Virus record (IMG/VR): IMGVR_UViG_3300014839_000648
Coordinates: 1 to 26,756 of that record
Direction: 5' to 3' (one strand)
Source: a virus
Length of the DNA stretch: 26,756 bases
Positions 2,410 through 17,253 of this stretch are shown in pieces. The notes under the pieces were generated by a model. That model made no database searches and had not been told where the DNA came from. It saw only the letters and a program-made list of their open reading frames with translations. Position numbers and translations under genes: made by a program. How positions within the stretch are numbered: position 1 is the stretch's first letter; each line of letters opens with the position of its first letter.

Positions 2410-2639
2410 GGGGATTAGTCTCCGCGCTCTCTCTGGCTATCGCCTCTTGCGTGAGAGCGCCGGACGGATTCCCAGTTATATCGACGGACGTATCCGGGAA
2501 TTCCCTGTCGTGCAAATGGGCCAGGTGTTGCTATCCGTATAGCAAAAAAGAAGGCTCGATTTACGTTTGCGCGCAATTCGAGCCCTCCATTCAGTGGGCG
2601 GATAAAATGGAAATATTCGTCAGATGGAAGTTACCGTGA
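2403..2639 (+). CDS. Small Cys-rich lipoprotein, function unknown
   Basis: A 78-residue ORF whose ATG (2403) overlaps the terminase end (ATGGTAA). It has a short basic N-terminus (MVRG), a hydrophobic stretch, and a lipobox ending LAIASC with C16 as the lipidation site: a type II signal peptide. Residue +2 is Val, not Asp, which in Gram-negative bacteria favours outer-membrane sorting. The mature part has four more Cys (37, 42, 43, 56), which could form two disulfides. The TGA (2637-2639) overlaps tail to tail by nine bases the minus-strand phosphoesterase. Candidate roles by analogy are a spanin-like lysis lipoprotein or a superinfection-exclusion lipoprotein; neither is shown. The gene also contains the minus-strand terminator. 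Confidence 0.55.
   Translation: MVRGLVSALSLAIASCVRAPDGFPVISTDVSGNSLSCKWARCCYPYSKKEGSIYVCAQFEPSIQWADKMEIFVRWKLP
2544..2584 (-). terminator. Intrinsic terminator of the minus-strand operon
   Basis: Read on the minus strand, a 7-bp perfect stem GGCTCGA / TCGAGCC (2578-2584 with 2553-2559, loop about 18 nt, extendable by two pairs after an A.A mismatch) is followed directly by TTCTTTTTT (2552-2544). It starts 47 nt beyond the phosphoesterase stop (2631), as expected for the end of the leftward transcript. In the plus direction there is no T-tract, so it should act one way only. The loop contains the palindrome TTGCGCGCAA. It lies within the lipoprotein reading frame. Confidence 0.6.
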
Positions 2640-3419
2640 TTTGAGCGCCGCGGGTAGAAGGCTAATTCCGTGGACGATCGGAATCGAAATGGTCGTGAAT
2701 ATGCCGTTGGGCCTAACGAATTGAATTCCGTATCCGTGGCTCCACGAGGTCGGGCGCGTGTGTCCGTATAGGGGAGCTAATTGGGCAAGGGTGCCGAAAC
2801 TCCATGCTCCAATTGCACCGCTGGACACGTTGGGTTCAATTCGCGAATCCACCCGGTGCGTGTGGCCGAATACCACGTTGCCGCCGAAGTACCGTATATG
2901 TTCTGCGGCCGCATGTCGCGCGTGAGACACGCCGTGGACGAAAAAGCATTTGCCCAATCGTATGGCGCCCCTACTTCGGACGCCCATATGAAATTCGCTT
3001 CTCTTATAATATTTGATGCCTCGTTGCTTCAGCTCGAGCACAGATTGGGGACCGTATACCTCGAGGAGGGACGCGGCATCATTCTCATCGGAGAATGAAT
3101 TGGCGCTCCATCGCTCCACGTGCCATTCGTGATTGCCCTCGAGGTAATGATAGTCAGCTCTCGGCGCGGCCCTCTGAATCATGTCGAGGAAGGTATTTGC
3201 CGATTTAATGTCGTCACCATACGATTCTGCAATCTCACTGGTGTAGCTGCGCTGATGCGAATTGAACGTGCCTCCACAATCGAGATGGTCTCCCAGCAGG
3301 ACTATCTCCTTAGGCTGCAGAGATTTGATATCGGCCGCGCAAGCCTTGGCGGAGCTCCAATCGATGTGAGCCCCGTGCGAGTCGGGTATGCATACCCTAA
3401 TTACCTCTCGTCTAGACAT
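2631..3419 (-). CDS. Calcineurin-like metallophosphoesterase
   Basis: A 262-residue protein with the full metal-binding signature of this superfamily in order: DSH (D13, H15), GDHLD (residues 43-47, D44), GNHE (95-98), FVHG (160-163, H162) and GHTH (185-188). The family uses two metal ions to hydrolyse phosphomono- or diesters; the substrate cannot be read from the sequence. Phage members of unknown role are common. It is the last gene of the leftward operon. Its ATG (3419) has GGTGG upstream and overlaps the previous gene by 19 bases. A terminator follows 47 nt downstream, and the stop overlaps the convergent lipoprotein gene. All catalytic residues are present, so it is probably active, possibly on nucleic acid or nucleotides (inference). 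Confidence 0.88.
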   Translation of the reverse strand: MSRREVIRVCIPDSHGAHIDWSSAKACAADIKSLQPKEIVLLGDHLDCGGTFNSHQRSYTSEIAESYGDDIKSANTFLDMIQRAAPRADYHYLEGNHEWHVERWSANSFSDENDAASLLEVYGPQSVLELKQRGIKYYKRSEFHMGVRSRGAIRLGKCFFVHGVSHARHAAAEHIRYFGGNVVFGHTHRVDSRIEPNVSSGAIGAWSFGTLAQLAPLYGHTRPTSWSHGYGIQFVRPNGIFTTISIPIVHGISLLPAALKSR

Positions 3420-3613
3420 GATTCCACCCTATCTATATTCGCCCTTGTCCATCCGTTGTCTCGGGCGTAGATGACAGCATTTACGAGCGCCTCGATACGC
3501 CTATCCCTATCAGCCTCGAGAAGTATCAGATGCTCCGGGGACATAATGCCGTCGCGCGACGTTGTAATGCCTCCATCCGCGTCTCGACGGATGTCTATGT
3601 ATTTACGGGTCAT
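3401..3613 (-). CDS. Small hypothetical protein (70 aa)
   Basis: I do not recognise a family. From the ATG at 3613 the protein is 70 residues, begins MTRKYIDIRRDADGG and is charged, with a helix-rich middle (HLILLEADRDRRIEALVNAV). I chose this start because it overlaps the end of the preceding gene by 11 bases, matching the coupling used throughout this operon; in-frame ATGs at 3628 and 3655 are alternatives that overlap more. The stop lies inside the phosphoesterase gene, with a 19-base overlap. Tight coupling on both sides supports it being a real gene. Confidence 0.6.
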   Translation of the reverse strand: MTRKYIDIRRDADGGITTSRDGIMSPEHLILLEADRDRRIEALVNAVIYARDNGWTRANIDRVESCLDER

Positions 3614-3842
3614 TGGATTTTGCGACATCGGCGATGGCTTGATATATGACAGCATCGGCCAATTCTTCGGCTCTCTCCTTATTCCAATCGCGTCTATCAG
3701 AGATGAGATTTAGCTCGCCATATACGGCCTGCCCCTTACTCATCCGTCTGGCGATATAGAGCAGCACGCGTTGCTCGGTTCGGCCGAGCGAACACACGAC
3801 ATCGAACAAATCTTCTACGTCCGCACTCAATAGCGTATTCAT
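3603..3842 (-). CDS. Small hypothetical protein (79 aa)
   Basis: The start at ATG 3842 overlaps the stop of the upstream 53-aa gene as ATGA, which decides it against a longer open frame reaching 3887. The protein is predicted helical, with the segment YGELNLISDRRDWNKERAEE followed by LADAVIYQAIAD. This pattern (an RDW motif, then an acidic helix and a D-A-x-x-Y helix) recurs in small phage and bacterial proteins of unknown function, but I cannot name a domain with confidence. It sits in the middle of the run of small coupled genes between portal and phosphoesterase. Confidence 0.65.
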   Translation of the reverse strand: MNTLLSADVEDLFDVVCSLGRTEQRVLLYIARRMSKGQAVYGELNLISDRRDWNKERAEELADAVIYQAIADVAKSNDP

Positions 3843-4000
3843 GCTTTTCCTCGTTCTCGGGTTACGACTTGCTCTTTTATTTCGCAAATTCGCATAACAC
3901 GGCCTTTATTTTCGAGAGACAGTCGAATGGCCAGATCCTTTGCTTTGCCGTAGTCTTCGATCTCAACTCCGATATAATCGGAAATTACGATGAATCTCAT
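3839..4000 (-). CDS. Very small hypothetical protein (53 aa)
   Basis: A 53-residue ORF fills the gap between two small genes exactly. Its ATG (4000-3998) overlaps the upstream stop as ATGA, and its TGA (3841-3839) overlaps the next ATG in the same way. The product begins MRFIVISDYIGVEIEDYGKA, has an N-terminal beta-like stretch followed by a basic C-terminus ending RERGKA, and resembles nothing I can name. The double ATGA overlap is the main evidence that it is translated; without it a 158-base unexplained gap would interrupt a fully coupled operon. Confidence 0.6.
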   Translation of the reverse strand: MRFIVISDYIGVEIEDYGKAKDLAIRLSLENKGRVMRICEIKEQVVTRERGKA

Positions 4001-4257
4001 TCGTTGAAATCCCCCTCTTCCGCCGCTCGCTCGTCCTCATCGGTCCACGGCTTTAATATCTCGAGCGTGGGAGCGGCGAGAGTCTCCATGAGAGATGTCT
4101 CGTCGGCAGACTCGGCGGATGCAATTAGCTTGTCGATCTCGTCCGTCATATCGATGTATTTGGACGCTGGAATTACGCCGTCCTCATCGGAGTTGGCCGC
4201 GTCCGCACCCCACGCTAACCATCCCTGTATCGCTTCCAATTTTTCCTTGAAATTCAT
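3997..4257 (-). CDS. Small acidic hypothetical protein (86 aa)
   Basis: The ATG at 4257 overlaps the portal gene stop as ATGA, so the start is preferred over an in-frame codon at 4272. The 86-residue product begins MNFKEKLEAIQGWLAWG and is strongly acidic, with long Asp/Glu runs toward the C-terminus (TDEDERAAEEGDFNE). It contains a KYID segment near the middle that also occurs in the 70-aa protein of the same operon, which is too short to call homology. Its acidity would suit binding to the very Lys-rich linker of the preceding portal fusion; that is only a guess. Confidence 0.65.
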   Translation of the reverse strand: MNFKEKLEAIQGWLAWGADAANSDEDGVIPASKYIDMTDEIDKLIASAESADETSLMETLAAPTLEILKPWTDEDERAAEEGDFNE

Positions 4258-6926
4258 TTTGACACCGCCCATTTCATTATTTTATCGAATGTCTCGAAGG
4301 CTTCTGGATCCTTATTTTTTAGCACTTCAGGGGCATAGTGGTAGGCCGACATCGTCTCGGCAAAATACTCGAATACGTTCGATTGACCATATTGAGACGC
4401 GCACCATACGCCATCGTTTCTCGGCATTGCCTTGTGTGGGGAGTCGGGGTTACCGGTGTTTACGATTTCGAATCTATCGCCGAACAGCTTCGCCACGCGC
4501 CTATATGCCGGCAAGTTTTGCTCGTGCAATATAAGGTGCAGATGGTGCGACAATTCGTGTAGCATTGTGGATTCGCGGAATAGAATTTCGTCCTCATAAC
4601 CTCCGCCGCGCGCGATGGCGCTTCCGACCCGAAAACATCCCTCTCCTATCCCGCCCGTGAATTCCTTATTTTCGAATTTCAGAGTCTTTTTCAAATAAGG
4701 AAGAGAACGAATAAATATGCTTGGAGACTTGTAATTCTCATTGTGCGGAATAAAGAGACCGTCCGCACGAGAGTATTTGCCCGGCATCTCTTCCACCTGC
4801 GCTACGGCGACCTTCTTTCTCTGTACGACCGCATCAAATCCCTTGGCCAGGACGCTATCGAGGGCTTGCCTTCCACGTTTGGTCAGTGCGACATCCATTT
4901 TCAATTCCGATGATGTTTGGGTCTTGCGCGCTGGCGCTTCCGGAATTTCCCAATCATCGAATTTTGCTTCGGGCTCGTCCTTTATGTCGTCGTAGTTTTT
5001 GCCTTCGAGTCCGGATTTCTTCGCCAGTTCTTTGGCTTCCGCTCGGTGCTTGGATGCCGCTTTCCGGTGCTCCTCCGCCTTAGCTTCCGCCTTCTCCAGC
5101 TCGGCCCGATGCTTTGCGCGTTCCCCCTTCGAAAGCCCCTTCTTGGACAGTACAGCGGCTCTGCGGGCCGCGCTCTTCCGATGTTCGTTGGCCGCGAACT
5201 TGTGGGCTTCGGCCGCCTTATTGTGGCTTTCGGTGGAAGCCTTTTTGCCAGTCGTTTTTTTTGATGCGGCCTCGGCGTTCTTGCTTGATGCTCCCCCTCC
5301 CTTGATGAAATGACCGTCCGGGCCCCGAGGGTGTAATTCTTCGTGCCACTGTCCGGACATAAGAGATCCACCACGGGCAATGGCGCTCATAGAATTGCCG
5401 CCCAAAGAGGTAGGGCCGGATCCCCCTTCATTTCCAGAATCTCCGCCCTTTTCCAATTCTGATATTGTCATATCTCCGCGCTTATCGCCCATTTTATCCA
5501 AGCCCTGTCCCTCTCGGGCTTCGTCCACCGTGACTACCTTTGATATATCGGTGGGTGCCAATTCTATATGAGAATGGGGCCGGACCTCGTGCGAAGGGCC
5601 GAGGATGGTCGGGACGCCATATCTGGCCATCAATTCTTCGATGTCCACTACGATGGGTTGCTTAATTCCTGCCGACACTTGTGCTGATGCAACCGCTTCC
5701 ACCAGGCCCTTAATCGCATTGGCTAGTTGTACATATGTTGCGGCCTCTCCCGAGCGCTCCTTCGGCGCCTCCACTTCGGTTTCAACCGTTACCGCATTCT
5801 TCAGCGCCTCCACGCCCCAAGTTTGTCCGATGTATGCTGGAAGAATTTGCGTATTCACGGTGTGGTCCCATGCTTCAGCAGTGGCTCGAATGAGATCCAA
5901 TTGCACGACACGGAAGACGTCCATATTAGAAAATCCAGCCGTGCCCTGGAGCATCACCGATGATCCGCATAGGCAGGTGGCAATTTCCTCATTGTGCGCC
6001 TTGATATCCTCGGTATAAATTTGCCAGCCCTGTCCCCTCGATTCGACGATTTTCACGTCCCATCCGATCGGGAGCACCGCGGCGGTATTAAGGCTCCAGG
6101 ATATGAGGCGCTGGAGTAGACCGCTTCGCTCCTCCTCGGTTGCCCCGAGCGGCGCGGTGGCGAATCGACCCGGAGATGAATGCTTGGTCGCATACGACTG
6201 ACGCATGAAAATCGATTGCGTCTTATTTATATACGATCGCCCGAGCGGATTCCAGAGTCCCGAATTCCAGGGATAGAGTCGGCCCCCCGGTATATGCAGA
6301 ATCCACATATTCCCGGACGAAGATACCTGGCCCGGATTGATTGGAATTAGGCCCGCGATAGAGCGGTAGTACCACTGATGACGATTCCAGAGAAAAAACA
6401 AATTCTGCGGGTATCGACGAATTAGAACGGGAAAATTGCGTCCCTGAACCGGCACCATTTCCCCGATGGAGGCTCCGGCAGTTAGCCCGTCCCATACCAT
6501 TAGACGGGCCTCGGATGACGGTATCATCTCATTATATACGTCCCGATCACTTCCAGTTTTGTCCCGCAGTACATCCACGATGGAACGATCGCCGTAGAAG
6601 CGCTTTGGAAAATTCACCACAGAGGTTCGGGCGTCGCCCAGGCCGCGAATAACGCCATCGTTCTTCATTGACTCGACCAATTGACCTATCATGGTCATGT
6701 CGCCATTTTGGGCCATGTGTTGGGCTCGCTCGATATCTGGCGGATACCATCGCAGACGGACACTGGGTATGGTCTCCAGCTCTCCGCCGAGCGCCTTGCG
6801 CGTCTCGTTGATCGCCTCATCATCCAATTGTGGGCCCGGCATGGGTTGAGGATCGAATCCGGAAATTCCAATCAGAGCCCGGGCCAGGTCTTTGATGGCG
6901 CTGATTGCCGCCTTGCGATCGACCAT
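4254..6926 (-). CDS. Portal protein (Mu gp29-like) fused to a zinc metallopeptidase domain
   Basis: An 890-residue protein, much longer than the roughly 500 residues usual for Mu-type portals. Residues about 50-380 look like a DUF935/gp29 portal: the IERAQHMAQNGDMTMIGQLVE and MVWDGLTAGASIGEM regions, an R-Y-P segment, and the helical AHNEEIATCLCGSSV stretch. Then come a Gly/Ser linker (490-515), the phage-typical HPRGPDGHFIKGG motif (532-544), a Lys/Ala/Glu-rich likely coiled coil (545-640), and a C-terminal domain with HELSH (790-794) and FEYFAETMSAY (852-862). HExxH plus a downstream E in an EYFAE context is the gluzincin pattern seen in anthrax lethal factor-like (ATLF) peptidases; H790, E791, H794 and E857 would be the zinc and catalytic residues. 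The portal ring is the DNA entry channel of the head. The peptidase may be carried in the head or act on head proteins; its target is unknown. The start overlaps the previous stop as TAATG. Confidence 0.85.
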   Translation of the reverse strand: MVDRKAAISAIKDLARALIGISGFDPQPMPGPQLDDEAINETRKALGGELETIPSVRLRWYPPDIERAQHMAQNGDMTMIGQLVESMKNDGVIRGLGDARTSVVNFPKRFYGDRSIVDVLRDKTGSDRDVYNEMIPSSEARLMVWDGLTAGASIGEMVPVQGRNFPVLIRRYPQNLFFLWNRHQWYYRSIAGLIPINPGQVSSSGNMWILHIPGGRLYPWNSGLWNPLGRSYINKTQSIFMRQSYATKHSSPGRFATAPLGATEEERSGLLQRLISWSLNTAAVLPIGWDVKIVESRGQGWQIYTEDIKAHNEEIATCLCGSSVMLQGTAGFSNMDVFRVVQLDLIRATAEAWDHTVNTQILPAYIGQTWGVEALKNAVTVETEVEAPKERSGEAATYVQLANAIKGLVEAVASAQVSAGIKQPIVVDIEELMARYGVPTILGPSHEVRPHSHIELAPTDISKVVTVDEAREGQGLDKMGDKRGDMTISELEKGGDSGNEGGSGPTSLGGNSMSAIARGGSLMSGQWHEELHPRGPDGHFIKGGGASSKNAEAASKKTTGKKASTESHNKAAEAHKFAANEHRKSAARRAAVLSKKGLSKGERAKHRAELEKAEAKAEEHRKAASKHRAEAKELAKKSGLEGKNYDDIKDEPEAKFDDWEIPEAPARKTQTSSELKMDVALTKRGRQALDSVLAKGFDAVVQRKKVAVAQVEEMPGKYSRADGLFIPHNENYKSPSIFIRSLPYLKKTLKFENKEFTGGIGEGCFRVGSAIARGGGYEDEILFRESTMLHELSHHLHLILHEQNLPAYRRVAKLFGDRFEIVNTGNPDSPHKAMPRNDGVWCASQYGQSNVFEYFAETMSAYHYAPEVLKNKDPEAFETFDKIMKWAVSK

Positions 6927-7223: not shown

Positions 7224-8756
7224 TTGAATGGCGCTACGCTCCAATCCGTGGACGTACACGTCTATTCGCCTATGGGCCTGATAGCCTGCTCAATGAGTGC
7301 GTGGGGAGCCACATTCGCGCCGTCTGATATAAATTCGAGTCTTCCGAATTCAGTCGCGTGCGATCGATATTCGTTCGTCCATATTGAGGGGCCTCTTTTC
7401 AATTCGAATTTTCACCCTCAATTCGATTGCTATCCACTAATTCTGGATCGCGTAAAGGCTGCTCTGTCCCTACCCTCTCCATGCCTGGTGCTTCGTCTGC
7501 GCTCTCCCGGAGGGGAATTCTCGGGAGCCATAGAATTGAGCAGAGACATTAGGGCTCTCGCGTCTGCCGCAGGTAAGAGGGTGGTGGCCCTAAGCGAGAG
7601 TCAAGCCCTTTCCGCCGCATACGCGATAGCGTGCGCGGCAGATGAAATTGTGGTGACTCCCAGCGGGGCAGCCGGATCAATTGGCGTGTGGTCAGTCCAG
7701 GAAGACTCGACTGTCAATGACGCCAAGATGGGTATGTCGTATCAATTTGTGGCCAGCGGGGATGCTAAGGTCGACCGGAATCCACACGTAGGAATTACTG
7801 AGGAATCCGTAAAACGAATTCGGGACGAGGTCGACGCCAGCGCGGAAGCATTTTTCTCGTACGTGTCAGAGCGTAGAGGCATCAGCGTCGAATCAATTCG
7901 GGCGTTGCAGGGTGGGGAATTTTTCGGGCAGTCCGCAGTCAATAAGGGCCTGGCCGATCGTGTGGTCAATTCGTGGAATTCATTTTCGTCGGAGGAAGAA
8001 ATGCCGAAGGACAAGAACGGTAGAGAACCGGGTGAACCGGGATATGATGAGGCCCTTGCGGCTATTCAGCGCGCGGCCGATGATGACAAGGACAAGGTGC
8101 GATCTGCGAAAGCTAAGCGCGCTTTGCGTGCTTGGAATGAGAATGAGCCCGAGGAAAAGAAGGATGAGCCGGCGAAAGCGGCCGCAGAGGAGAAGGAGCC
8201 CGAGGAAAAGGAGAAGGAGCCGGCGAAAGCGGCCGCAGAGGAGAAGGAGCCCGAGGAAAAGAAGGAGGAGCCGGCGAAAGCCCTGCTGGCCCTCGCCGAG
8301 CAGGTGCAGACGCTCGCATCCCAGCTCGCATCACGAGATGCAGCGGACGCGAAGAATAAGGAGGAGTCGGAACGTGCGCGACTTCTCGCGAGTCGACCCG
8401 ATTTTGGCGAAGCCGTATGTCACACGCTGGCATCCGCGTCCCTGAGTGTGCTCCGGAATGCGGTAGAGACGTGGCCTCGCGCTCGGGCATCCGCATACTC
8501 GGCTGCTATCGCGAATGTACCGTCCGGAATTACTCCGGATGTCAAATCGAATTCTCATCGCATGACCCCTGAGGAGGCGCAATTGTTTGCGCGCTCATCT
8601 GGCAGTCTCAGGGCTCAGGCGACAGGTCCTGTCCAAGTGGGAAATTCGTTTTCGATCGGATATTCAGATCCGTCTGTCGGCGCAATTCGCGCCAAGAAAC
8701 TCGCGGACGAGCTTGCCGCCATAAATGCTGAAGTCGAGGGAATGATCCATGGCTGA
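7224..8756 (+). CDS. Head maturation protease (S49/SppA-like) with C-terminal scaffold
   Basis: A 510-residue fusion of protease and scaffold, as in lambda C/Nu3. The protease covers about residues 45-250: SPGG (94-97), S130 in SQALSAAYAIACAAD as nucleophile, the GAAGSIGVW loop (148-156), and K182 in GDAKVDRNPH as the general base, a Ser/Lys dyad. It would cleave scaffold and head proteins inside the prohead. After residue 255 the chain is highly charged, with a 17-residue repeat rich in AAAEEKEPEEK, then a coiled-coil-like stretch (354-390) and a C-terminal helix (RAKKLADELAAINAEVEG), typical of a scaffold binding capsid protein. The start is uncertain: TTG 7224 is the longest, with GTG 7248 and ATG 7272 also possible. 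The stop overlaps the next gene by eight bases. Confidence 0.88.
   Translation: MNGATLQSVDVHVYSPMGLIACSMSAWGATFAPSDINSSLPNSVACDRYSFVHIEGPLFNSNFHPQFDCYPLILDRVKAALSLPSPCLVLRLRSPGGEFSGAIELSRDIRALASAAGKRVVALSESQALSAAYAIACAADEIVVTPSGAAGSIGVWSVQEDSTVNDAKMGMSYQFVASGDAKVDRNPHVGITEESVKRIRDEVDASAEAFFSYVSERRGISVESIRALQGGEFFGQSAVNKGLADRVVNSWNSFSSEEEMPKDKNGREPGEPGYDEALAAIQRAADDDKDKVRSAKAKRALRAWNENEPEEKKDEPAKAAAEEKEPEEKEKEPAKAAAEEKEPEEKKEEPAKALLALAEQVQTLASQLASRDAADAKNKEESERARLLASRPDFGEAVCHTLASASLSVLRNAVETWPRARASAYSAAIANVPSGITPDVKSNSHRMTPEEAQLFARSSGSLRAQATGPVQVGNSFSIGYSDPSVGAIRAKKLADELAAINAEVEGMIHG
8145..8280 (+). repeat. 51-bp tandem repeat in the scaffold region
   Basis: A 51-base (17-codon) unit starts at 8166, 8217 and 8268, with a partial unit from 8145 and the last copy cut off at about 8280. 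Each full copy begins GAGCCGGCGAAAGCGGCCGC, and copies are nearly identical at DNA level, pointing to recent duplication. It encodes the EPAKAAAEEKEPEEK-type repeats of the scaffold and probably varies in copy number between relatives. Confidence 0.85.
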
Positions 8757-12565: not shown

Positions 12566-14044
12566 ATGACTGTTCCTTCGGTTACATTTTCCAAAGTCAA
12601 CGCGAACACGGGCGTCGTGCCGCCCTCCCAATCGGGAGTGATGGCCATTATCGCCCCCTCTCAATTCGGTCCGATCAACACTCCGCAAACGTATGGAAAT
12701 GCCGCTACTGCTCAATCCGCTCTAGGCCTGGGTCCCGCAATTGAATATCTTTCATACGGACTCAGCGCATCCGGCAAGCCCTCGCTGGCGGTTGTCCCGG
12801 CCACATCCACGGCTGCCACGTACGGAACAATTGCGTACACTGGTACGGGCACCATGCACGGTACACCACCGATAGCCGGTGCTGCCGTACCATTGGATGA
12901 TTACCAAGTTATCGTGACATTTACCACCGCTGGTACGTCGGGCACATCTGGAATTTATTACACCTACTCGCTCGACGGTGGGAATACGGTTAGCGCCCCC
13001 ACTGCTCTTGGTATCGCCCTCTCGCTGGCAATCCCCAATTCTGGCGTTTCGTTCACTCTAACTACGGCCCTCACTGTTGTCGTCGGGGATTTCTTCACGT
13101 GCAATGTGACTCATGCGCGAGCGACATCGGCAGACCTCATTGCGGCATTCGAGGCGCTCCGAACGACCCAACAACCGTTCGAGGCCGTACTCGTCGATGG
13201 AGAAACATCGTCCGCGATCATAAGCGAGATCGATGGCATCCTGGCATCGTGGGAGGCGGCAGGCAAATTCAAGTGGTTCGTCGTCAATACCAGACTCAAG
13301 AATCTGCCCCTGCCAACCGGGGAGACGGAAGCAGCCTACGCCACGGCTATGGCTGCCATAGTTAGTTCCGATTCGACAATTAGGGGTTTGGTGTGCTCTG
13401 ATGGCGCGGACAATACGAGTCTTGTTACTGGCCTCACAATGCAGCGCCCCACATCGATGTTCGTGGCGGCACGCGCGATGAAGGTGCTTCCCGGGGTGAT
13501 GCCCGAGGAAAAGGACCTGGGCCCACTACCTAATGCCTCGATTTCGGACGCCAATGGCAATCCGAGGCACCACGATGAGTACCTGTACGACGATCTGGAT
13601 GCCCTCCGCCTTGTTTCGCTATGCACCGATCCGTCCACCACCGGTACGTTCATATCGAATTCATTTGTTCTCTCGTCGCCGGGCTCCGATTACGTCTATC
13701 TCCCGCATTTGCGTACGATGAATCTCGCCTGTAGCGCGGCGTGGGCTGCATTGAATTTGCAACTAAGCAAGGGCGTTCGCAAGGGCGCTCCCGATCCTAC
13801 TACGGGCCATATCTATATTCTCGAGCCGGATGCTCAATCCATCGAAGCAGCGGTGAATGATGCTCTGGCCAATCCGCTGAAGGGGCAGGTCACGAACGTC
13901 AAATTTACGCTGTCTCGCACCGATGATTTGAGTGCGAATTCTGGCGTCACAATTCACGGAACGTTGCAAATCGAGGCCCTCGCATATATCAAGGGATTTG
14001 CGGTGTCGGCCATGTTCACCAAAAATATCGCGCTCACCACCTGA
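12566..14044 (+). CDS. Contractile tail sheath protein
   Basis: A 492-residue protein with AGAGG before its ATG (12566). The N-terminus (VPPSQSGVMAIIAPS, then a SALGLGPAIEYLSYGL helix) matches sheath proteins, where the first strand interlocks subunits. A Thr/Gly-rich inserted beta domain spans about 80-190. The C-terminal part has the typical DDLDALRLVSLCTDP and VYLPHLRTMNLACSAAW segments and ends in strands (GVTIHGTLQIEALAYIKGFA) that donate to the neighbouring subunit. It surrounds the tube and contracts on infection. Length fits the family, and the tube gene follows directly. Confidence 0.85.
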   Translation: MTVPSVTFSKVNANTGVVPPSQSGVMAIIAPSQFGPINTPQTYGNAATAQSALGLGPAIEYLSYGLSASGKPSLAVVPATSTAATYGTIAYTGTGTMHGTPPIAGAAVPLDDYQVIVTFTTAGTSGTSGIYYTYSLDGGNTVSAPTALGIALSLAIPNSGVSFTLTTALTVVVGDFFTCNVTHARATSADLIAAFEALRTTQQPFEAVLVDGETSSAIISEIDGILASWEAAGKFKWFVVNTRLKNLPLPTGETEAAYATAMAAIVSSDSTIRGLVCSDGADNTSLVTGLTMQRPTSMFVAARAMKVLPGVMPEEKDLGPLPNASISDANGNPRHHDEYLYDDLDALRLVSLCTDPSTTGTFISNSFVLSSPGSDYVYLPHLRTMNLACSAAWAALNLQLSKGVRKGAPDPTTGHIYILEPDAQSIEAAVNDALANPLKGQVTNVKFTLSRTDDLSANSGVTIHGTLQIEALAYIKGFAVSAMFTKNIALTT

Positions 14045-14054
14045 GAGGAATGCC

Positions 14055-14561
14055 ATGGGAGATATAGTTAGAGTCCAGGATATGCTTTTTTCAGGCACGT
14101 CCTGTCTATTCAAAATCGGCACCAGTATTTCGGGAGCCAGTCCGTGGACAGGCATTGTTGACATCTCTTGGGAGCACTCGCGCGAGCCCAAAGTCGTATA
14201 TGCGAATCGACAGGACGGTCGACCCATCGGATGGACGGCTGGGAAATACGAGGTAGGCTCATTCATGATGAAAATGTTGCTCGACTCGAGCAATGCTCTC
14301 AAGAAAATGCTGTCAGATCAGTATGGCGGATACGGGCGAACCCCATTTTACCTTTTCGGCTCTTTCTATGAGCCCGAGTTGACAGCGGAAGGGGTCATGT
14401 CAATTGTGGCTTCTCCGTGCCGAATCAAGTCGGTCAAATTTAGTAAATCGGAGGGCTCGGACGAGCTTTGCGAGGAGTTGAGCATTGCGTGCCTCGGAAT
14501 CATCGAAAACGGATATACGCTATACGAGGCCAATCCGGCTCTTGTGCCGCAAGTCGTTTGA
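14055..14561 (+). CDS. Tail tube protein
   Basis: A 168-residue protein immediately after the sheath, the standard order in myoviruses. The start is ATG 14055 with GAGAGGAA upstream; a longer open frame from 13932 would overlap the sheath gene and is not needed. It looks like a single beta-rich domain: FSGTSCLFKIG, a WEHSREPKVVYANR strand pair, GWTAGKYEVGSFMMKM, a helix (LDSSNALKKMLSDQYGG) and a final ELCEELSIACLGI strand region. Sheet plus one helix fits a tube subunit. Assignment rests on position, size and pattern. Confidence 0.75.
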   Translation: MGDIVRVQDMLFSGTSCLFKIGTSISGASPWTGIVDISWEHSREPKVVYANRQDGRPIGWTAGKYEVGSFMMKMLLDSSNALKKMLSDQYGGYGRTPFYLFGSFYEPELTAEGVMSIVASPCRIKSVKFSKSEGSDELCEELSIACLGIIENGYTLYEANPALVPQVV

Positions 14562-14573
14562 TAGGAGAATGCC

Positions 14574-14999
14574 ATGACCGAAGTGATTGAAACTATTTCT
14601 ATCGAGGAGCGAAAGAGAATTATATCCGAAAAGAAAGCGGAGAGAGAGCTGAAGCTGAATCAGCAAAGGGAAATTCATGCCCTTGAGGGGGACGAACTTT
14701 CGGAGCAATACGAAACAGAAATCGGTCCCAAAGGTCAGAAGTTCGATCTTGTGGATTGCGAGAATGACGGATGGATTGTGGTGCGTCGCGGACCGGCCGT
14801 GACGTATAAGCGATTTATGGCGTCGGCCAAGGTCGACGACCTGGACAAACAGCACGAATTCGTGGTGCCCAATTTGGTACATCCGGGGAAGGATGAATTC
14901 AATCGAATTACATCGGACCGGCCTGGTCTACTGACCGCTAGTGCCAATGCACTAATTCGTCTCTTCGGGATGGGTGTACAGGAGGCAAAAAAAGGATAA
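14574..14999 (+). CDS. Tail assembly chaperone, short form (P2 E / lambda G-like)
   Basis: A 141-residue protein between tube and tape measure with GGAG before its ATG (14574). It is highly charged at the N-terminus (ISIEERKRIISEKKAEREL) and has a GWIVVRRGPAVTYKRF segment and a C-terminal helix (TASANALIRLFGMGVQEA). In contractile and siphophage tails this slot holds a chaperone that coats the tape measure and is made in two forms by -1 frameshifting. Here the last codons are GCA AAA AAA GGA TAA, giving a canonical slippery site. A shift would add 65 residues after residue 140 and give a 205-residue long form. Confidence 0.8.
   Translation: MTEVIETISIEERKRIISEKKAERELKLNQQREIHALEGDELSEQYETEIGPKGQKFDLVDCENDGWIVVRRGPAVTYKRFMASAKVDDLDKQHEFVVPNLVHPGKDEFNRITSDRPGLLTASANALIRLFGMGVQEAKKG
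14987..14993 (+). other. -1 ribosomal frameshift site A AAA AAA
   Basis: The seven As are in the correct phase: the zero frame reads GCA AAA AAA GGA TAA, so the heptamer is X XXY YYZ with tandem AAA codons. Slipping back one base gives AGG ATA ATC GGG GAG CGC TCC ATG..., with no stop until 15190, joining the 141-aa and 58-aa frames into 205 residues. AGGAGG ends one base before the As, and the palindrome GGAGCGCTCC follows at 15004-15013, both possible modulators. The geometry and gene context match the tail-chaperone frameshifts of lambda G-GT and P2 E-E'. Confidence 0.8.
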
Positions 15000-15013
15000 T
15001 CGGGGAGCGCTCC

Positions 15014-15190
15014 ATGGCGGAGAATGACCAATGGATAGTGGCTTATTCTCTGCTAGAATTGCTTTCGACCAGCATCGAAAGAGATGAAGCGTCGGAAGAA
15101 AGAGCCCTCCTAGGGGCCCTGCTGATTGCCGACAATATCGCCGAGGAGAGGGCGTTCCGGAAGTGGATAGTCAAATCGTTCAGTAAGTGA
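15014..15190 (+). CDS. Tail chaperone frameshift extension (T/E' part), 58 aa if initiated alone
   Basis: A 58-residue reading frame in the -1 frame relative to the chaperone gene, open upstream across the slippery site. It encodes a helical segment: WIVAYSLLELLSTSIERDE, then EERALLGALLIADNIAEE and a basic end KWIVKSFSK. In the family this T-like domain recruits the tail tube to the chaperone-bound tape measure. GGGGAG six bases before ATG 15014 could also allow independent start. The stop lies five bases before the tape-measure ATG, which has no ribosome site of its own, suggesting coupling. Confidence 0.75.
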   Translation: MAENDQWIVAYSLLELLSTSIERDEASEERALLGALLIADNIAEERAFRKWIVKSFSK

Positions 15191-15195
15191 TTACA

Positions 15196-17253
15196 ATGCC
15201 CGATCAAACAGCCACGTTCAGACTCCAATTCGAGGGCAACGCCAAAGACGAGGCGTTCGCCCTCAGTGCGGAAATGGAGAAACTGAGGGCTCGAATAGAG
15301 CAGGGACAGGGGGCCATCAAGGCTTACAATTCAAATATCAAAGCGATGAAGGGCAGTTCCGATGCTCTTGTCGCGGCGAAAAATAATTTGAAATCCAAGG
15401 TGGATGCCGAGCGAGACTCAATCTCCAAAGATCGCCTCGATTTGTTGAGGTTGGGGGCCAGCTACGAGACGTGCGCCGCCAAAGTGAAGCATCTGGCGCG
15501 AGAAGAGGCGAATAGGATCAAGCTGAAAGAGGCGGAAAATCTGAAAAAGTCGACAGAGGCCCAAAACAGGTTATCGGCCGCTATCCGCATGGGTGGTGGA
15601 CCGGTGTCGAGCCTGGCCGGCAAGGCCAAGGAATTGAATGGTGTATTGGGAGGATCTGGCGGCGCCATGGCTGGCGTCGCCCTGGGAGCCGCCGCTATTG
15701 TGACAGGGGTAATCGCCGTCACATCGACGATCGCGGGCGCCACCGAGGCGATGGGCCGATTTCTCTGGCAATCAGCCCTGTCGACTCGCCAGCAATATCA
15801 ATTCGCTCGCGCATCCACAATATCCGGTGATAGCGCCAAAAATATGATCAAAGGGCTCGACTATTTTTCCAAGATGCTTCCCCAATCCAGGGAGGAACTA
15901 GCGGGTTTGCAGGCCGACATCACCATGGCAATTCGAGGCTCCAGATTGGGTGGGGAAGCCCGGGCCGTTTCGAATTTGTTTGCCCTTACCGCCTCGACTG
16001 CCGCCGTATATGGCGACAAGGTTTCATCGAAGATGAGAAGCGTTTTCGAGGGAATGAAAGACGAGATGTGGGGATATTCTCGAATTTCGAGGCAGGCGCT
16101 TGAGGGTACCCCATTCGCAAAGTCGTTCAATGAAATTGCGGCTATGGCGAAAAAGGCCGGAATAAACATCAATCTCGTAGCCAATGGTATGGGCGAACAG
16201 GGTCTAATGGGCAAGACGAAGGATCTGCTCGCAGCCTTCCGCATGTTCAACGATCAATCGCAGACCACGAGGGAAACGCTTTCGTCGGCCATGAAAGATC
16301 CATATGTCTTGTGGACGAAATTTACCGATAAATTGGGCCAATTCGGCAGGTCACTGAAAATTGAACCGGTCCTGTTGGCACTATCAAAATTGGTAGATGG
16401 ATTCGACGTGTCGACGTCGGAAGGCAAGGCATTCGGCGAAACGCTGAGCCGGGCGATGAATAGCAGTATGCCCACCATCATTGCCGGCATAGAATGGATC
16501 GGGGCCAGCATTCCGTCGCTCATACGTAGCGTAGGGGCCTTCGTGTCTTCGATTGGTAGTATGGCTAAATTCGTCAGCGATCATTGGGGTACGATTAAAC
16601 TTGCCATCATGGCTATTGGCGTCTCTGTCGTCGCAATCGGCGCCGTATTCGTTCTCGTTGGCGGGATTATCGCTGCATCTCTTGCCCTAGTCGGAGCGGC
16701 TATCGTTGCCGTGGGTACGGCCGGTTACGGCGTCATGTCCGTCATTTGGAATTTAGGCTCGAGCATTGTCAGCGCCTATAATTTCATTGCCGGCCTAAAA
16801 TGGTCAGATATTGGCAGGGCAATTGTGGATGGCATCGGAAGCGGAATCAGAAATTTCGGAGCTTCACTGATCCAAGACGTGAAGGATCTCGGATCTGGCA
16901 TAATGAATGCGTTCAGGGGAATGCTGGGCATTCATTCCCCGTCGCGCGTATTCGCCGAATACGGACTCAACATCACTGCCGGATTGGCGCAAGGCATACA
17001 CTCGGGGGCACCGCAGGCGAGAGAAGCGGTGGAACAAATGGCTCCCATGCCGCCCCCAGCATCGATGGGAAACGGCGTAAACCGAAACAGTTCGAATGTG
17101 TTCAATATAACCATTCAGGTTCCCACGACCGGAAGCGGAAAAGAAACAGCCGATGCCCTCACATCTCCGTCTCTTCGCGAGGCGCTCGTTAGATTCCTGG
17201 AGCAAGCAGCGATAGAATCCGGATTGTCAATCGGGACGGTGGTACCGCAATGA
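15196..17253 (+). CDS. Tape measure protein
   Basis: A 685-residue protein that sets tail length; at about 0.15 nm per residue the tail would be near 100 nm (inference from the known relation). The start is taken at ATG 15196 rather than an in-frame GTG at 15187. The N-terminal 130 residues form a charged likely coiled coil. Hydrophobic Gly/Ala stretches lie at about 155-183 and 465-515, the latter long enough to cross a membrane. The C-terminus has the common HSPSRVFAEYG motif (about 578-588) and a Ser/Asn-rich tail ending in a beta segment. It follows the chaperone as expected. Confidence 0.88.
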   Translation: MPDQTATFRLQFEGNAKDEAFALSAEMEKLRARIEQGQGAIKAYNSNIKAMKGSSDALVAAKNNLKSKVDAERDSISKDRLDLLRLGASYETCAAKVKHLAREEANRIKLKEAENLKKSTEAQNRLSAAIRMGGGPVSSLAGKAKELNGVLGGSGGAMAGVALGAAAIVTGVIAVTSTIAGATEAMGRFLWQSALSTRQQYQFARASTISGDSAKNMIKGLDYFSKMLPQSREELAGLQADITMAIRGSRLGGEARAVSNLFALTASTAAVYGDKVSSKMRSVFEGMKDEMWGYSRISRQALEGTPFAKSFNEIAAMAKKAGININLVANGMGEQGLMGKTKDLLAAFRMFNDQSQTTRETLSSAMKDPYVLWTKFTDKLGQFGRSLKIEPVLLALSKLVDGFDVSTSEGKAFGETLSRAMNSSMPTIIAGIEWIGASIPSLIRSVGAFVSSIGSMAKFVSDHWGTIKLAIMAIGVSVVAIGAVFVLVGGIIAASLALVGAAIVAVGTAGYGVMSVIWNLGSSIVSAYNFIAGLKWSDIGRAIVDGIGSGIRNFGASLIQDVKDLGSGIMNAFRGMLGIHSPSRVFAEYGLNITAGLAQGIHSGAPQAREAVEQMAPMPPPASMGNGVNRNSSNVFNITIQVPTTGSGKETADALTSPSLREALVRFLEQAAIESGLSIGTVVPQ

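Follow-up and report, generated by a model that had tools for sequence, protein, structure and literature searches.

The closest described systems are the gpG/gpGT gene pair of phage lambda and, for the signal itself, dnaX of Escherichia coli. In lambda, a two-part gene lies between the tube and tape measure genes; a heptamer late in its first part (G_GGA_AAG) lets ribosomes slip by -1, and a C-terminal extension is thereby read in the -1 frame. Tail assembly frameshifts of this sort are well known among tailed phages and were reportedly surveyed by Xu, Hendrix and Duda in 2004. The locus described here has the same arrangement. However, its tail is contractile, its heptamer is A_AAA_AAA and a strong hairpin follows the heptamer. 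The combination of an A-run heptamer and a downstream hairpin is that of dnaX, but a dnaX-type Shine-Dalgarno element lies 9-14 nt upstream (PMC5009743), whereas that of our locus lies 1 nt upstream, where -1 slipping is attenuated (PMC6321510).

The DNA analysed, hereafter the window, comprises 26,756 bases and is a linear IMG/VR virus contig. We propose that it encodes a conserved G/GT-type tail assembly chaperone pair of a contractile-tailed phage, expressed through a programmed -1 frameshift with the hairpin as stimulator, and we put the probability of this reading, which is built on sequence comparison, at about 0.93. In practical terms, it correctly joins a pair of ORFs that would be separated or overlooked in annotation.

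The genes run in the order sheath, tube, two-part gene, tape measure (Table 1), which is the placement of a G/GT-type pair and bears out the position between tube and tape measure that an earlier, sequence-only reading of this DNA had assigned. For the tape measure gene ATG 15196 is the preferred start, and its ORF opens at GTG 15187. Elsewhere in the window, a block at 2631-6926 on the minus strand, opposite to the terminase, capsid and tail genes, holds a Mu-like portal gene and a calcineurin-like phosphoesterase. At its C-terminus the portal protein (4254-6926, minus strand; 890 aa) is extended by a long segment bearing a HELSHH zinc-protease-like motif, which we take as a fused protease-like domain; the Pfam match there (ATLF, E 0.009) falls below its cut-off. 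On the plus strand, a 51-bp tandem repeat of 2.8 copies (8139-8281) lies inside an S49-type head protease gene and encodes an E/K/A/P-rich linker.

Table 1. Features of the tail chaperone locus, in window coordinates.
Feature	Position	Strand	Evidence or detail
Tail sheath gene (DUF2586, phrog_907)	12566..14044	+	Pfam E 3.8e-18; PHROG E 5.6e-19
Tail tube gene	14055..14561	+	Weak match to phrog_4579 tail protein, E 0.0057; position after sheath
Zero-frame chaperone (gpG-like), 141 aa	14574..14999	+	Family profile excluding the window, E 4.9e-22; model pLDDT 93; 3FGX Z 10.3
AGGAGG, Shine-Dalgarno-like	14980..14985	+	1 nt before A-run; direct reading and family comparison
Slippery heptamer A_AAA_AAA	14987..14993	+	Phase by direct reading; equivalent sites in 51/68 -1 loci
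-1 frame T-like domain, 65 new codons	14990..15190	+	Stop TGA 15188-15190; profile built without the window, E 6.2e-11
Two-tier RNA hairpin, proposed stimulator	15003..15066	+	15003-15009 with 15060-15066; 15015-15030 with 15039-15055
Possible separate 58-aa ORF from ATG 15014	15014..15190	+	GGGGAG 15002-15007 upstream; start not conserved
Tape measure gene	15196..17253	+	phrog_58 tail length tape measure, E 5.2e-24

The zero frame ends in CAG GAG GCA AAA AAA GGA TAA, with the TAA at 14997. The A-run therein stands in X_XXY_YYZ phase and is separated from the stop by one sense codon. The open -1 frame spans 14942-15190; translation after tandem slippage gives a predicted fusion of 205 aa whose junction reads ..EAKKRIIGER. 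The sequence-only reading had called the heptamer phase, the open -1 frame, its 65 further codons and products of 141 and 205 aa, and all of these were confirmed base for base; the AGGAGG one base before the A-run and the GGGGAG ahead of ATG 15014 with its 58-aa ORF, which it also described, are likewise present on direct reading. The downstream hairpin was absent from its account.

Searched against Pfam and PHROG, the two-part gene itself matched no chaperone family at E 0.01, and DUF6848 and phrog_5128 match 17 of 47 homologues. Its identity as a tail assembly chaperone, claimed earlier, is supported by the gene order, by the resemblance to solved tail chaperones in both profile and structure comparisons and by homology across 113 distinct loci. 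When the predicted structure of the zero-frame protein was aligned with 223 chains, the top three solved matches were 3FGX (Z 10.3), 3KLU (5.1) and 2OB9 (4.7), all of them called phage tail assembly chaperones, 2OB9 being gp13 of HK97 (PMC9603447). A profile of the homologues also matches 3FGX by sequence (E 1.2e-9), and in Meiothermus phage MMP7 the homologue carries the annotation ‘XkdN-like’. The window protein is predicted to share the tail chaperone fold of HK97 gp13, Bacillus subtilis YqbN and RBSTP2171, its best three structure matches, but differs from these in an extra helix at the N-terminus, about 40 residues long (10-49).

Direct scans with the chaperone, sheath or baseplate protein of the window alone found no relatives; profiles built from distant phages were needed. 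Loci gathered by a sheath profile from viral contigs and bacterial genomes yielded 113 distinct chaperone genes, that of the window included. A search of both shifted frames placed the second domain in the -1 frame at 68 distinct loci, in the +1 frame at 16, and showed another or unclassified domain at 29. Profiles from which the window had been left out still find its first part and its -1 part at the E-values of Table 1; the next best window ORF for the -1 part profile reaches only E 0.57.

A slippery site is usual at the same place in the -1 loci of this family. A canonical in-phase heptamer, with A in the second triplet, occurs within the last 8 codons of the first part at 51 of the 68 -1 loci, compared with 5 of 1283 control stretches of 8 codons elsewhere in the same homologous genes. 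A7 as such is not rare in the window (4 listed matches, two of which overlap on the minus strand within one 8-base run, against 3.0 expected from shuffling), but its phase and place exceed chance, since in-phase A/T-type heptamers occupy only those 5 control stretches. The 51 heptamers are G_GGA_AAA (27), A_AAA_AAA (19), A_AAA_AAC (2), A_AAA_AAG (2) and G_GGA_AAG (1), and most of the other 17 loci retain a single-tRNA run of A_AAA-, G_AAA- or U_UUC-type. One of the three nearest relatives (L005) speaks against the frameshift reading in that it has only TCA_AAA_TAA, a weaker single-tRNA site. In other words, the frame relation is retained in this sheath-anchored family of phages even as its slippery sequence drifts, mainly between G_GGA_AAA and A_AAA_AAA. 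The sequence-only reading had looked to relatives for conservation of the run and of the -1 frame: the exact A7 is not conserved, whereas an equivalent site at its place and the -1 relation are. It is this frame relation in 68 loci, together with a slippery site at the same place, that supports a programmed -1 frameshift.

The stem of the hairpin begins 9 nt after the heptamer, a usual spacer and within the 5-9 nt of dnaX-type sites. Its folding energy is -28.2 kcal/mol (z -4.0). When the -1 frame was recoded synonymously 1000 times, the average was -16.4 +/- 3.0, and 1 in 1000 was as stable (P about 0.001). The closest sheath is only 44% identical and no relative is near enough for a base-by-base alignment of the hairpin. 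Folding across the family gave a mean z of -1.4 under synonymous recoding, compared with -0.36 for a segment located 81 nt farther downstream, and a dinucleotide-shuffle test agrees (-1.41 versus -0.07 for an upstream control).

Frame, phase, conservation, homology, predicted fold and hairpin are what the analysis shows; the slippage itself, its rate and the roles of the two proteins are inferred. In this reading, most ribosomes would stop at the TAA and release the 141-aa chaperone. A fraction, slowed by the hairpin with AAA-AAA in the P and A sites, would slip back one base on A_AAA_AAA and continue into the T-like domain to give the 205-aa fusion. By analogy with lambda, where gpG and gpGT function as described (PMC5009743), the short form may coat the tape measure and the long form may recruit tube subunits.

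An alternative is that ribosomes reinitiate past the TAA and make the 58-aa part alone from ATG 15014, either in place of frameshifting or in addition to it. This ATG lies 17 nt past the start of the TAA and its GGGGAG has an anti-Shine-Dalgarno energy of -7.3; however, that GGGGAG falls partly within the predicted outer stem of the hairpin, and in loci that have a canonical heptamer no stop interrupts the -1 frame across the slippery site. Because a start with a Shine-Dalgarno near the join is present in just three of the 68 -1 loci, including the window, and 39 of the 68 lack any start codon there from which the second part could be made, reinitiation cannot be the mechanism of the family. 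Although we hold this explanation to be improbable, ATG 15014 may contribute some product by reinitiation in the phage of the window.

Somewhat less probable again is that RNA polymerase slips on the A7 and that messages with extra A residues yield the fusion. The run is a homopolymer, and slippage is known to occur on A/T runs of about 9 bases (PMC5009743). However, the replacement of A7 by G_GGA_AAA in 27 relatives argues against it, in that this sequence has no long homopolymer yet suits tandem tRNA slippage. The phase of the heptamer is also conserved, which polymerase slippage would not need.

The AGGAGG raises a third alternative, as the sequence-only reading suggested that it might favour forward slipping as in prfB. 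Its distance to the P-site codon, 2 nt, is indeed near the 3 nt of prfB (PMC5009743), and the product of a +1 slip would read ..EAKKDNRGALHGGE. However, reading in the +1 frame meets a stop after 11 codons and yields no conserved domain, and the T-domain homology sits in the -1 frame. Forward slipping is thus unsupported as a productive route, and we give it very little credence.

What the AGGAGG does for -1 slipping is a separate matter. It aligns with an E-E-A/V codon stretch of the relatives, in which the Shine-Dalgarno-like element, where present, usually ends about 4 nt before the heptamer; that of the window is one codon nearer. Stimulatory elements lie 9-14 nt away for -1 and 3 nt away for +1 shifts (PMC5009743), and -1 slipping is attenuated by an element adjacent to the E site (PMC6321510). 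We considered a conserved stimulatory Shine-Dalgarno and rejected it: after sheath-cluster weighting the family signal is suggestive, and for the spacing of the window it is negative. Unweighted, family pairing exceeds the synonymous expectation at 8-mer gaps of 3-5 (z -3.85). Weighted by 32 sheath clusters, it is modestly stronger than expected at gaps of 4-6 (z -2.1 to -2.5) and weaker than expected at gap 0, the position of the window's own element (z +2.6). Given a spacing outside the stimulatory ranges, the attenuation at the E site and the weak family pairing at this gap, the AGGAGG of the window is probably neutral or a mild brake on -1 slipping.

That a sequencing error in the homopolymer splits a single gene, such errors being common and the window being an IMG/VR virus contig, is refuted by the recurrence of the same frame relation in 68 distinct loci with different local sequences, and its probability is negligible.

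The same chaperone pair occurs with its second part in the +1 frame in a Thermus/Meiothermus-type clade (16 distinct loci, including L002:7120-7160 and L003:7160-7190). Meiothermus phages MMP7 and MMP17 and Thermus phage Riverbug share the gene order of the window and have homologous first and second parts, but differ in the +1 position of the second part and in having no A-run; the likely slip is at TTT_C behind GA(G/A)GAG. At 13 of the 16 loci the join reads GA(G/A) GAG (G/A)CN NNN TTT C. Phenylalanine is TTT at all 13 of these joins, and TTT makes up 29% of Phe codons in these loci, a bias whose P of 1e-7 assumes independent loci, which they are not. The other three (L043, L053, L057) have no TTT_C and an ambiguous slip site, CTT_C or AAA_A. 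The sequence TTT_CGN resembles the PA-X site of influenza, UCC_UUU_CGU (PMC3498833). A -2 shift was rejected for the main +1 clade by reasoning, since it would require re-pairing from TTT to mismatched codons such as ATT or AAT.

The sheath tree places all +1 loci in one clade (SH-aLRT 99), so one change of direction suffices. In the main +1 group (13 loci), the slip codon TTT stands at the third codon after GA(G/A)GAG, the register that GGA, as first slippery codon, has in -1 relatives bearing GAGGAG. We tentatively hypothesize, while considering the odds to be somewhat against it, that the direction switched once between -1 and +1 and that the upstream Shine-Dalgarno-like element at about 4 nt is a shared, direction-neutral pausing element. 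If true, this would place a pausing element outside both of the known ranges given above. Shifts of -1, -2 and +1 are already known among different phages (PMC5009743), and a switch of direction would therefore be a new case within one family rather than a new kind. A family holding both -1 and +1 joins offers a natural set for how ribosomes are steered backward or forward.

The 29 unclassified loci (e.g., L034, L041 and L052) are homologues of the chaperone in which the -1 frame encodes a second domain of another kind. They carry T_TTT_TTA/C or A_AAA_AAG heptamers and include genome contigs of Lachnospiraceae and Clostridiaceae (L174-L182).
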